From positions 1 through 33,036 of the IMG/VR virus record IMGVR_UViG_3300048921_000140: DNA of 33,036 nt; one strand, given 5' to 3'. The DNA is from a virus. Under the pieces are notes generated by a model. That model worked only from the letters and a program-made list of their open reading frames with translations, did no database searches and was not told the origin of the DNA. The position numbers and the translations under genes were made by a program. This document shows positions 392 to 29,752 of the stretch, piece by piece; the stretch's first letter is position 1; each line of letters starts with the position of its first letter.

Positions 392-1408
392 ATGGTTGAT
401 GAAATCAAGGATGCCAAGCCTTCAACTAAGCCAAAGGATGTCACGCTTAGGGCTTTCGAAATTAAGAATGTAAATATTTCAAAGCCTTCAAGCGAAGCCA
501 AGTCTATCCTTTTAAAAAAATTAGAATCCGTCAAGATTGCTAAAGACCGATGCATGCAGCTTAACAATGACGACCCGAATAAAGAGAAGGATCTAATCTC
601 TTATTATAAAAACTCGGATGCTTCAAACAGTATTTTTTGCACTATGCTTCGTATAAGTACTGAAAATGATATACAACATGTTACTGATACATTGTTTGAA
701 AAAGAAACCTTCACTATGGAAGATATTGCGACGGCTCACATTGATACATCAGCCATTTGCAAAGGGCATTATTATTTTTCTTTGAACGATGATTTTGTAG
801 TTACTAATTTACCACTCAACAAAACTATTGCTCGTCTTCAAACTTATATCGGCTGGTTTACTGACAATGAGTTATTTGAACTTACGCCGATGATTTCGCC
901 AAAGGATAAGACAAGGTTAAGTGACCTCAAGGGGATTGTGGTCAAAGACCCTGAACCTTTAGCAATTTCGAGCGGAACTGCAAACTCAGATGGTAACACT
1001 AGTTCACCAAATTCTTTATCAACTGAGTCTCATAAAAAGGTGCATCTTGGACAGCAAGTATTAGACATAATCCGAAAATCACTGTCTGATACAAAAACAT
1101 TAGATGACATAACGCTCAGTCAAATGATTTCTGCTGAACTATTAATCAAGTTCAAGAAGCCTAGAAAGATGTCTGATGAAGAGTACAAGAGAGTTTTAGG
1201 TGCTTATCTTAAGCCGGTTAGCGATCTTGAGAATATCTCGTTCAAACGTACAGACAATAAGACTGAGATTAAAGGTAAAGATTTGCTTAAAACTAAGCGT
1301 GTTTCGATCGAAACAACGGCTAGCGGAAAGATAGTTGAACAACAATTACTCAAACAAATGAGCGCATTTCTGGTAGAATTATCAGATGAGAAAAATCGTT
1401 CTAAGTAG
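392..1408 (+). CDS. RexA-like phage exclusion sensor (putative)
   Basis: 338-residue soluble protein without signal or membrane segment. It shows two blocks (about 80-190 and 218-330) joined by a Ser/Thr/Asn-rich linker (about 191-215). From memory of lambda RexA (279 aa) I see a matching order of motifs: an F-x-F beta segment followed by D, then an L..(F/Y)I helix, an (E/T)P(L/M) motif near 166 and VK near 184; then in the C-terminal block KFKK (253-256), NISFK and a long charged helix. Its partner is a 149-residue four-helix membrane protein whose ATG lies 23 bases inside this gene, as expected for RexA/RexB-type coupling. In lambda, RexA is a cytosolic DNA-binding sensor that triggers the RexB channel. 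Divergent orientation, low GC and position at the prophage end suggest cargo expressed in the lysogen. Homology is by eye only; an unrelated two-gene abortive system is possible. Confidence 0.55.
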   Translation: MVDEIKDAKPSTKPKDVTLRAFEIKNVNISKPSSEAKSILLKKLESVKIAKDRCMQLNNDDPNKEKDLISYYKNSDASNSIFCTMLRISTENDIQHVTDTLFEKETFTMEDIATAHIDTSAICKGHYYFSLNDDFVVTNLPLNKTIARLQTYIGWFTDNELFELTPMISPKDKTRLSDLKGIVVKDPEPLAISSGTANSDGNTSSPNSLSTESHKKVHLGQQVLDIIRKSLSDTKTLDDITLSQMISAELLIKFKKPRKMSDEEYKRVLGAYLKPVSDLENISFKRTDNKTEIKGKDLLKTKRVSIETTASGKIVEQQLLKQMSAFLVELSDEKNRSK

Positions 1409-1835
1409 CCTCATAATCCTTGTGATTACGACACTTGCTAGCTCTGTCTGGGATATCCGCCCGGACAGCTTTTTCTCGTCAACAATCTTTACCATAGCAG
1501 GGATCATGTTCTCTGTAGGTATAGGGTTGATCGTAACTTTCAATCCTAGCGGTGTTAAGAACAAAGACTACTTAATTCAACTACGTTCTAACATTGAGCA
1601 CATACGCAATTCATTCTTGATACATTTCTGCTTACTATCCGTATATTTTATTATAAATCAATATGTTGCGGACAAAAAATTCGATCTCCACTTTAAAGTG
1701 CATTTTGAAATTACCTTTAGTTTCTCAATTTTATTCTGTTTGCTGATGATTTATTCATCAATATATTTTGTTGTTAATTTCCTTGAAATTCAAAAACTTA
1801 ACAATGACATTTTTGACCGTTTAAACAGTGAATGA
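1386..1835 (+). CDS. RexB-like four-helix membrane protein (putative)
   Basis: 149 residues with four hydrophobic helices at about 4-22, 29-51, 76-94 and 108-132 and a charged, helical C-terminal tail. Lambda RexB (144 aa) has the same size, four membrane helices and a final helix that runs into a short charged tail with L-x-x-L-type spacing. The start overlaps the end of the RexA-like gene by 23 bases and has a weak Shine-Dalgarno, so translation is probably coupled. If the assignment holds, it is an inner-membrane ion channel that depolarises the cell when the partner senses a superinfecting phage. Base composition is clearly lower in GC than the tail genes, which suggests separate acquisition. 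The membrane topology is firm; the family name is inferred. Confidence 0.55.
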   Translation: MRKIVLSSLIILVITTLASSVWDIRPDSFFSSTIFTIAGIMFSVGIGLIVTFNPSGVKNKDYLIQLRSNIEHIRNSFLIHFCLLSVYFIINQYVADKKFDLHFKVHFEITFSFSILFCLLMIYSSIYFVVNFLEIQKLNNDIFDRLNSE

Positions 1836-1922: not shown

Positions 1923-2243
1923 TTAAAAAGGCCGGTTCCCGAGCCATACACTCAAGACTTCGCAAGTCACCTTGCCCAGCACGATAATCCCCTCCAGGCC
2001 ATCTCCGTCGATCGTCTCACCGTCCAAAGTAATGATGCCAGTCCGGAAAAGCCTTCCCAGTTGAGGTAATTCGCCTGCCTGAAATGCAACTTTATCGCCC
2101 GACTTTGGCTTCACTGATTTGTCGGCCAGCACGAATCCGTCCGGCGTCTCAATCAGAATCATATTGTTGCGGTGCGGCATCAGCACGTCGTTCAGGTCGA
2201 TGCGCTTTTCAATATAGTCGTTTGCAGGTGATGGAAATCCCAT
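1923..2243 (-). CDS. UmuD'-like protein lacking the protease dyad
   Basis: 106 residues. The N-terminus reads GFPSPANDYIEKRIDLN right after Met, which matches E. coli UmuD from Gly25 onward, the residue exposed when UmuD cleaves itself to UmuD'. The protein therefore starts as pre-processed UmuD'. The region that would hold the SGDSM serine is missing (about 20 residues shorter after residue 32), and the lysine region VKKL corresponds to LGRL, so no self-cleavage is possible. The rest keeps the S24/UmuD pattern (ADK....SGD.VAF; DGLEG...LGKV). Start: ATG two bases after the upstream TAG, with GAGG ahead of it. It is the second gene of a LexA-boxed operon. Phage P1 HumD is a known UmuD'-only homologue. 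No UmuC is in the window, so the partner would be host UmuC or RecA, or the fold is reused for another job. Confidence 0.7.
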   Translation of the reverse strand: MGFPSPANDYIEKRIDLNDVLMPHRNNMILIETPDGFVLADKSVKPKSGDKVAFQAGELPQLGRLFRTGIITLDGETIDGDGLEGIIVLGKVTCEVLSVWLGNRPF

Positions 2244-2245
2244 AT

Positions 2246-2485
2246 CTACCTCACGTATCCCATATTGCGGAGCGCCCAGGTTTTATTCTCACTCTGCTCG
2301 GTGACCAGCTCGAAGAAGAAATTCTGATAGCGCCGAATCCACCTGTTGCACTCTGCCAGCGTCCATACGTGATTGACGTCATCAAGCCGCTTCTGGAATG
2401 CCGCAGTGGTGAGCGTCTGCCTGCCACGTCCATCCAGCGTCAAAGAACTCATAAACGCTGCCTGTATGTCACTCTCTCTCGCCAT
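2246..2485 (-). CDS. SOS-operon hypothetical protein
   Basis: 79-residue small protein, charged and mostly helical in appearance, with a W-TL-ECN-WIRRYQ-FF segment in the middle and an aromatic end (NKTWALRNMGYVR). No domain recognised. Excellent ribosome binding site: GGAGGAGG 7 bases before the ATG. A perfect LexA box lies 24 bases upstream of the ATG, and the UmuD'-like gene follows after two bases, so both are probably made only after DNA damage. It could be a small modulator of replication, RecA or the UmuD'-like protein, but nothing in the sequence decides this. Confidence 0.75.
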   Translation of the reverse strand: MARESDIQAAFMSSLTLDGRGRQTLTTAAFQKRLDDVNHVWTLAECNRWIRRYQNFFFELVTEQSENKTWALRNMGYVR

Positions 2486-2508
2486 GATAGATCCTCCTCC
2501 GATTAATA

Positions 2509-2524
2509 CTGTATGGATAAACAG
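2509..2524 (-). promoter_or_regulatory. LexA box (SOS operator)
   Basis: CTGTATGGATAAACAG fits CTGT-N8-ACAG exactly. It sits 24 bases upstream of the ATG at 2485 on the minus strand; TAGACA, a good -35 match, lies just upstream and the AT-rich TATTAAT just downstream, so LexA would cover the core promoter. This marks the 79-residue/UmuD'-like operon as part of the SOS regulon. Confidence 0.85.
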
Positions 2525-2609
2525 TAGTGTCTATCGATACTTTTGATCAAGGCTGAGGGGTGGACAGATTTGTAAAGGCTTTGAGGAGAAAGGGTTTTTA
2601 GTTGGCGAT

Positions 2610-2832: not shown

Positions 2833-3210
2833 ATGTTTAATACTCTTGTGGCTATTAAAAAGAACAACCGATCTCCTCATGCAGGCAGGCTTGAGTTAAG
2901 GAGATCGATACTTTCTCTAATCAATACCATCAATGACATCAAAATATTTTGGTCTCAGCGTCAGGAGTTTCTTTACGGTGAGCTTCCTCATCATCATGTG
3001 ACCGCTGTCACTAACCTTCTGCAGGGTGAGCAAAGATCTCAATTCGTTTCTGCACTTCGCCGATATGATAACTGCCGGGCTAATCACTCTGGCGCACCGT
3101 ACCCGGACTTAGTGTCGGTAGATGGAGTGGCCGGGAACCACAGGGTTGCGTACCCTGAGTGGTATTCCCGACTCAGTGAACTGCAAAGGCTTCTTGAGTC
3201 ACACTTTTAA
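2833..3210 (+). CDS. Hypothetical protein, convergent with tail operon
   Basis: 125 residues, basic N-terminal third (RLELRR, KKNNR), no signal peptide or membrane segment. Not recognised. Ribosome site GGTGAGG five bases before ATG. The upstream 130 bases are very AT-rich with TATAAA at 2771-2776, a possible -10. Its stop overlaps the stop of the convergent tail fibre assembly gene by four bases. It lies in the conversion locus at the phage end, on the strand opposite to the late operon, which suggests independent expression, perhaps in the lysogen. Confidence 0.6.
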   Translation: MFNTLVAIKKNNRSPHAGRLELRRSILSLINTINDIKIFWSQRQEFLYGELPHHHVTAVTNLLQGEQRSQFVSALRRYDNCRANHSGAPYPDLVSVDGVAGNHRVAYPEWYSRLSELQRLLESHF

Positions 3211-28396: not shown

Positions 28397-28561
28397 CAAG
28401 TTTACATTTAATATTAGATAATTAGTCCTTGCTTATGGAACAATGGATAAGTAAATATCAATTGATAAAAAAACTTGCTCAAAAATTCAATTGGGCCAAA
28501 GTTAAGCGACAAAAACTGATAACGTAACGCAACAACCCTAGCCACATTGGAGTTACAACCT

Positions 28562-29752
28562 ATGACAGATACTGCCTACTCCCTTGAACTAAAGAAAGAA
28601 GTAGATGCAGAGCAATATATCGAACTTTTAGATATAGATGACTCAAGAATACATGAATTCGCACATGGCGATATCATATGCCCTATCTGTGAAGCTAACG
28701 GTGGCACATATGTAAGAGCTTCAAAAACAGGCACTCATCATAAAAAAGCTCATTTTAGATTCACTAAAGCTGGTGAGGAAAGTGCTCATCATCCTTCATG
28801 CGATTTTTATGGCGACAGACTGTCCACTGAAATTAGCGGTTATCTAATCCCATTCACTACAGATAGAACAAAGATAACCAGGGTCATCAGAAAAATGGTT
28901 TGTGCAGCTTTGCAGGCTGGAATCATTTCTCAGGAATCCATGAGGCTTATGCGTCAATGGTTTTTTGAAAAAAGAGTTAACTCAACATTCTCCGTAACAA
29001 TATCTGAGGAGGAAATTAGCTGGCTGAGTTCTATAATTAGCCTGAATGGTTACTATAATTTAAACCTTAGAAATGAAATAATACCATTCAAACCAGTACA
29101 AGCCACCATTACTGGCTTTTCTTGGAGAGAAGCGATTCTTAGAGAAGCTGTCAGAATTCATCAGCCTACTTTAAAAGCTCTTCACGACCTTGAACTATGG
29201 CCAGCGAGAATCTATGAGCTTGAAAAGTTTATAAATAGCCCTAGACCAAAAATTATAATTGATCCTGCTCTCCTAGAAAATGAATACAAGAAAACACTGC
29301 AATTGACAAATTTTATAATTTCTAATCTTGCAGAGTTCAAATCAGACTCTGTAAGACAACGAGCCCATAATGAAGAGAAACTCCTTGCTTTTTCAGCGCT
29401 CATACTATTTGTATCTGACTGGGAAATCGATGGAGCTATTGAAAAAATCGCTAAGATTTCAAACATTGAAAATGTTAATGACATGTTGGCTGGTAATTTT
29501 ATAGGATTGAATCCCTATCTGAAATTTTCCCTAGCAGACACAGCAAAAAAAATACAAGATCATGCCGATATACCTATAAATAAAATTGAATTATGGGAAA
29601 TAGAAAGCTTGATGCGCAACTCATACACTAAATTCCTATCAAATTCCAGCGAGAACCATCCTCCGCTAGGCCCCGATATTCACATTAGTAAACATCTTGA
29701 AGCAGAAGCATTTGAGAAAAGGGTTCAAAATATGATTGATGGGAAATTTTAA
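28562..29752 (+). CDS. Protein with CoiA-like zinc N-terminus (inserted gene)
   Basis: 396 residues from the ATG at 28562, with GGAG 9 bases upstream. Residues 37-82 carry C40-x2-C43, H59-H60, H64 and H76-H77-x2-C80 in the order seen in the N-terminal zinc-finger part of CoiA-like proteins (DIICPICEANGG, AHFRF, HHPSCDFYG). The remainder is mostly helical without recognised domain; I do not see an obvious PD-(D/E)XK nuclease core. AT-rich, opposite to all neighbours and followed by its own terminator, it splits the early region. This is typical of a defence or conversion cargo gene. What it binds is unknown; a nucleic-acid role is suggested by the zinc module only. Confidence 0.65.
   Translation: MTDTAYSLELKKEVDAEQYIELLDIDDSRIHEFAHGDIICPICEANGGTYVRASKTGTHHKKAHFRFTKAGEESAHHPSCDFYGDRLSTEISGYLIPFTTDRTKITRVIRKMVCAALQAGIISQESMRLMRQWFFEKRVNSTFSVTISEEEISWLSSIISLNGYYNLNLRNEIIPFKPVQATITGFSWREAILREAVRIHQPTLKALHDLELWPARIYELEKFINSPRPKIIIDPALLENEYKKTLQLTNFIISNLAEFKSDSVRQRAHNEEKLLAFSALILFVSDWEIDGAIEKIAKISNIENVNDMLAGNFIGLNPYLKFSLADTAKKIQDHADIPINKIELWEIESLMRNSYTKFLSNSSENHPPLGPDIHISKHLEAEAFEKRVQNMIDGKF

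Follow-up and report, generated by a model that had tools for sequence, protein, structure and literature searches.

Why would a phage encode, behind a LexA box, a UmuD-like protein that already begins at the UmuD cleavage site and can no longer cut itself? Cleavage of UmuD is a timing step that delays error-prone repair. It is aided by RecA and must occur before UmuD can activate UmuC (PMC5342242). We addressed this question in a 33,036-nucleotide stretch of viral DNA (the window), which derives from a temperate contractile-tailed phage with tail sheath, Mu-like baseplate, terminase, portal and O-like replication protein genes. The tail module ends in a two-gene operon on the minus strand (Table 1); in relatives, the cassette is flanked by tail-fibre genes on one side and by attP/integrase on the other. 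Because the best relatives of the window are IMG/VR contigs (UmuD'-like protein identity up to 90%) and Pantoea phage AH07 (68.6%), the host is likely of the Pantoea/Erwinia type.

Table 1. Coordinates of the operon features in the window.
Feature	Position	Strand	Basis
LexA (SOS) box TACTGTTTATCCATACAGTA	2507..2526	-	Site in window; position and sequence kept in relatives
LexA box 16-bp core CTGTTTATCCATACAG	2509-2524	-	Perfect CTGT-N8-ACAG
Ribosome-binding site GGAGGAGG of the 79-aa gene	2493..2500	-	Read from sequence; GG core conserved
Gene 1: 79-aa predicted winged-helix protein, phrog_3893	2246..2485	-	ORF, family match, model, dN/dS 0.077
Likely ribosome-binding site GAGG of the UmuD'-like gene, within the end of gene 1	2249..2252	-	Read from sequence
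Gene 2: 106-aa UmuD'/HumD-like protein, phrog_3469	1923..2243	-	ORF, profile, model, dN/dS 0.078

A preliminary description of this DNA had proposed a LexA-controlled operon, with a perfect CTGT-N8-ACAG box ahead of a 79-residue gene and a UmuD'-like gene, and the box and both reading frames are indeed in place. The box lies 39 bp before the 79-codon gene 1, which is separated from gene 2 by 2 nt; this spacing is 2, 1 or -1 nt in nearly all relatives, and we infer translational coupling from gene 1 to gene 2. The 16-bp core is the sole exact match in the window, where 0.44 matches are expected by chance, and taken alone it is weak evidence. The extended pattern TACTGTNTATNNANACAGTA (2507-2526), composed after the site had been seen, had no match in 100 shuffles. 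We judge the box to be real because it is conserved in relatives: among those collected through their proteins, a perfect box stands 29-42 bp from the first start codon in 191 of 210 distinct operons with a short UmuD'-like gene and enough upstream sequence, and many of the others differ by one mismatch. No other conserved block upstream is as long as the box, and 226 representative loci hold only 236 perfect boxes in total over 1.29 Mb. Two layouts recur: in 151 distinct cases the box precedes the 79-aa gene, and in 40 it stands immediately in front of a solo UmuD'-like gene. The proposed LexA control of the operon is supported by this conservation. Simple scans for promoters and terminators were uninformative.

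The gene 2 product begins M-GFPSPANDYIEKRIDLN, that is, with Met followed by UmuD residue 25 onward (M-GFPSPA); it has no SGDSM motif and carries Gly at the position of Lys97. A single-sequence search reaches UmuD' via residues 2-33 only, and a profile of 64 relatives aligns end to end with E. coli UmuD' residues 25-137 (E 5.6e-11). In 77 of 77 non-redundant short relatives, UmuD residues 57-67, including Ser60, are missing as one clean deletion, and Lys97 is replaced (Ala in 45, Gly in 22). Both the start exactly at the cleavage site and the absence of the serine and lysine regions had been pointed out in the preliminary description; the second now extends to the whole set of short relatives, which also lack UmuD 105-111. 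Sequences of UmuD and LexA from E. coli served as rulers, and that of UmuD agrees with PDB alignments where they overlap. The most conserved part is the arm, with G25, F26, S28, P29, A30 and D32 present in 77 of 77; conservation of MGFPSPAxD partly reflects the search pattern, but is also present in pattern-free sets. Outside the arm the core of the short proteins has diverged, and UmuD positions 81 and 95, which have been linked to RecA contact or to recombination (PMC5342242), are not conserved. The family is phrog_3469 'UmuD-like protein' (E 4.9e-20). Since purifying selection on gene 2 is strong (median dN/dS 0.078), its product appears to be a working protein and not a remnant.

The predicted structure fits this assignment. 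An AlphaFold2 model of the gene 2 product (pLDDT 86.9) has UmuD' (1umu and 1ay9) as its best PDB matches, at probability 1.00 and with a moderate TM-score of 0.60-0.63; the structural match to UmuD' on which the initial reading had been staked is thereby found in the model, next to the full-length profile match. A Pfam search with the protein returned no match, and the Ser-Lys dyad of Peptidase S24 (PF00717) is absent from it. Compared with E. coli UmuD', gene 2 shares the arm (GFPSPAxDYxExR), the predicted fold and LexA control, but its product is only about 22-27% identical, would be made already processed and without self-cleavage, and comes from an operon that contains no umuC.

The nearest characterised relative is HumD of phage P1, a phage-borne UmuD' homologue that likewise starts at the cleavage product, as do N15 gp26, phiKO2 gp23 and the HK639 protein. 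In these phages, too, a perfect LexA box lies 32-62 bp upstream and no umuC partner is nearby. Profile comparison of the gene 2 family with P1 HumD gave 98.8% probability over the full length, so the suggested likeness to HumD holds as homology, although gene 2 scores 28.8 bits, over residues 1-32 only, against the cut-off of 120 for the NCBIfam HumD equivalog NF051876. The protein is not a HumD in the sense of that model, but may work like one. The P1 HumD record is annotated with functional complementation of E. coli UmuD' and a LexA site, and McLenigan et al. 1999 (cited in PMC4713147) state in their title that HumD facilitates SOS mutagenesis. HumD differs in having 129 aa and the loop, whereas gene 2, with 106 aa, has lost both the loop and the second segment; P1 HumD also appears, in our reading of the alignment, to keep the Ser and Lys that gene 2 lacks, and the 79-aa partner is absent from the HumD phages. 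Because HumD-type proteins of 123-130 aa recovered by the same searches mostly lack the serine as well yet keep the loop, the short, loop-deleted form reads as a further step in the same decay of protease function. From its sequence, we take gene 2 to encode a HumD-type UmuD' that is shortened and non-proteolytic, within a prophage accessory operon under predicted SOS control. The principle is already known from P1 HumD (1999); to it we add a large family that has lost the protease loop completely, the predicted winged-helix partner with conserved LexA control, and the spread to plasmids. Phrog_3469, gene 2's own family and of the same length (106) with no difference from it, is functionally unstudied as far as we found.

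What would such a protein do? We think it probable, with a good deal of doubt left, that the operon provides a HumD-like supply of active UmuD' that feeds host pol V. As a prophage accessory locus (moron), it would be repressed by host LexA until DNA damage and RecA-triggered LexA cleavage release its transcription, which would in one step yield an already processed UmuD'-type protein incapable of cutting itself. This protein would form UmuD'-like dimers, as for P1 HumD, and bind host UmuC (and RecA), so that an active pol V-like complex would arise before and beside host UmuD' and raise translesion synthesis, helping damaged prophage and host DNA to survive. The response would most likely be modulated by the 79-aa partner through DNA or protein binding. 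We favour this supply of UmuD' because the protein is born cut, cannot cut, keeps the arm, in which mutations change UmuD's effect on recombination (PMC5342242), and has a precedent in HumD, and because the hosts encode a UmuC domain. No UmuC gene is annotated beside the UmuD'-like gene in any region inspected, so the protein would have to rely on host UmuC; the UmuC C-terminal domain (PF13438) was found in 17 of 17 host genomes and 2 of 14 controls, a domain that is probably common in these bacteria and whose presence in hosts is only permissive. Binding to UmuC may have changed, since the core has diverged and UmuD 105-111 is deleted.

The same combination of a well-kept arm and a diverged, trimmed core would also suit a decoy or brake, in which the gene 2 product sits on UmuD/UmuD' dimers, UmuC or the RecA filament but supports no translesion synthesis, and so keeps mutagenesis or RecA activity (recombination, repressor cleavage) in check during SOS. 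We consider this main rival unlikely. The cassette often adjoins a dinI-like gene in E. coli phages, and DinI is a modulator of RecA. The UmuD arm changes G25D, S28T, P29L and E35K alter its effect on RecA-mediated recombination, and arm mutations enhance its inhibition of that process (PMC5342242), which again would agree with a brake. P1 HumD, however, is reported to replace UmuD' and not to block it, and the 79-aa family is paired with HumD-type proteins as well, both of which argue for supply of UmuD' over interference.

The partner itself belongs to phrog_3893 (E 1.5e-24), a family with no function assigned; its earlier portrayal as undescribed is right for function and wrong for family, to which we add the fold prediction and LexA control. 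It too is under strong purifying selection (dN/dS 0.077). Its AlphaFold2 model (pLDDT 88.3) has the order helix-strand-helix-helix-strand-strand, and Foldseek places winged-helix folds (TubR, forkhead domains, Fur, MarR) among the top matches, all weak (best E 0.025), so that a winged helix is predicted; the median net charge of the family is only +2. No convincing relative was found in Pfam, NCBIfam, PADLOC or PDB sequences; a match to antitermination Q was weak (E 0.22), and when the full 79-aa family was used for an alignment-based search of loci, no sufficiently conserved stretch emerged. Some records, including some plasmids, label these proteins 'DNA polymerase V', an unlikely name for a predicted winged helix.

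How tightly the two genes belong together bears on a further alternative. When loci were searched for by the 79-aa gene alone, all 78 that had downstream sequence contained a UmuD'-like gene; phages HK225 and LLS carry the 79-aa gene with no UmuD'-like gene detected. The 79-aa proteins of HK140 and of locus L180 are 89% identical and their UmuD'-like partners 26%, and identities of gene 1 and gene 2 across pairs correlate at r = 0.44. The family is found with HumD-type as well as loop-deleted proteins, as if these were interchangeable. Solo genes, exchanged partners and the modest correlation together speak for a shared regulon over an obligate complex. Among the solo UmuD'-like genes with a LexA box directly in front (L176, L196-L203 and similar), that of BUCT554 (L176) lies just upstream of the terminase genes, unlike the attP-side cassette.

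Together, the two products would match the two-domain plan of LexA, a winged helix plus an S24 fold, and could form a two-piece LexA-like or UmuDAb/DdrR-like transcription regulator. Acinetobacter does offer UmuD homologues that act as repressors with a small partner (PMC11332147), and the UmuDAb/DdrR pair resembles our cassette in joining a UmuD homologue to a small accessory protein in DNA-damage control; UmuDAb, however, has its own DNA-binding domain, which gene 2 lacks. Such a split regulator is improbable given the 40 distinct solo UmuD'-like genes with their own LexA box, the exchange of partners, the correlation of identities at only r = 0.44, and a sole fused frame (L322) that is a damaged gene. 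Homology of the 79-aa family to the LexA N-terminus was rejected, as there is no profile similarity. An SOS-controlled antirepressor that induces the prophage, like Tum of phage 186 or the N15 antirepressor, is very improbable: a small LexA-controlled gene at the prophage end near integrase and tail-fibre genes would suit one, but 22 of 26 cassette phages also carry an S24-family protein of 219-260 aa, the size of a self-cleaving CI repressor, so that, by this indirect test, they have no obvious need for the antirepressor that a prophage without such a repressor would require, and the same gene pair sits on conjugative plasmids.

The cassette with its LexA box recurs in hundreds of related viruses and prophages, and the 79-aa family is found on about 1,000 plasmids (about 945 of them conjugative), mostly IncX3-like; several are exactly 46,161 bp long and of IncX3 type where inspected. 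A broader form of the supply of UmuD' is conceivable, and we put it forward tentatively: a mobile Enterobacterales phage/plasmid SOS cassette whose proteolysis-free UmuD' and winged-helix factor redirect or take over host pol V/RecA, making mutagenesis early and independent of UmuD cleavage. A widespread phage family that would bypass UmuD cleavage under the same LexA switch offers a direct test of whether prophages speed host SOS mutagenesis, and the 79-aa partner, present on so many plasmids including an IncX3 lineage, makes an obvious subject for further work. On two plasmids (IncX3 and IncFIB; L354 2895-3010 and L340 3895-4010), which carry different alleles, ISKox3 has inserted into the LexA box that precedes the 79-aa gene, and only the right half of the box is left; these operons may be uncoupled from SOS. 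In the IncX3 record with ISKox3, the HumD-type gene also ends short, beside IS26.

Several other features of the window stand apart from the operon. At its left end, positions 61-111 resemble the 3' portion of a tRNA gene, by eye one for tRNA-Leu, and are probably the attachment site; ARAGORN found no whole tRNA there. An orphan 125-aa gene without family matches occupies 2833-3210 (+), and a 401-aa gene of phrog_12525, function unassigned, lies at 28547-29752 (+) on the strand opposite to its neighbours. At the prophage end, two overlapping genes at 392-1408 (+) and 1386-1835 (+) encode proteins of 338 aa and 149 aa, a possible defence or exclusion module. The 149-aa product is likely a membrane protein; the 338-aa product has a very weak HEPN AbiA C-terminal match (E 0.043), and its gene has relatives in Escherichia phage PhiR68_2 (49%) and Acinetobacter phage TCUAN1 (43%).
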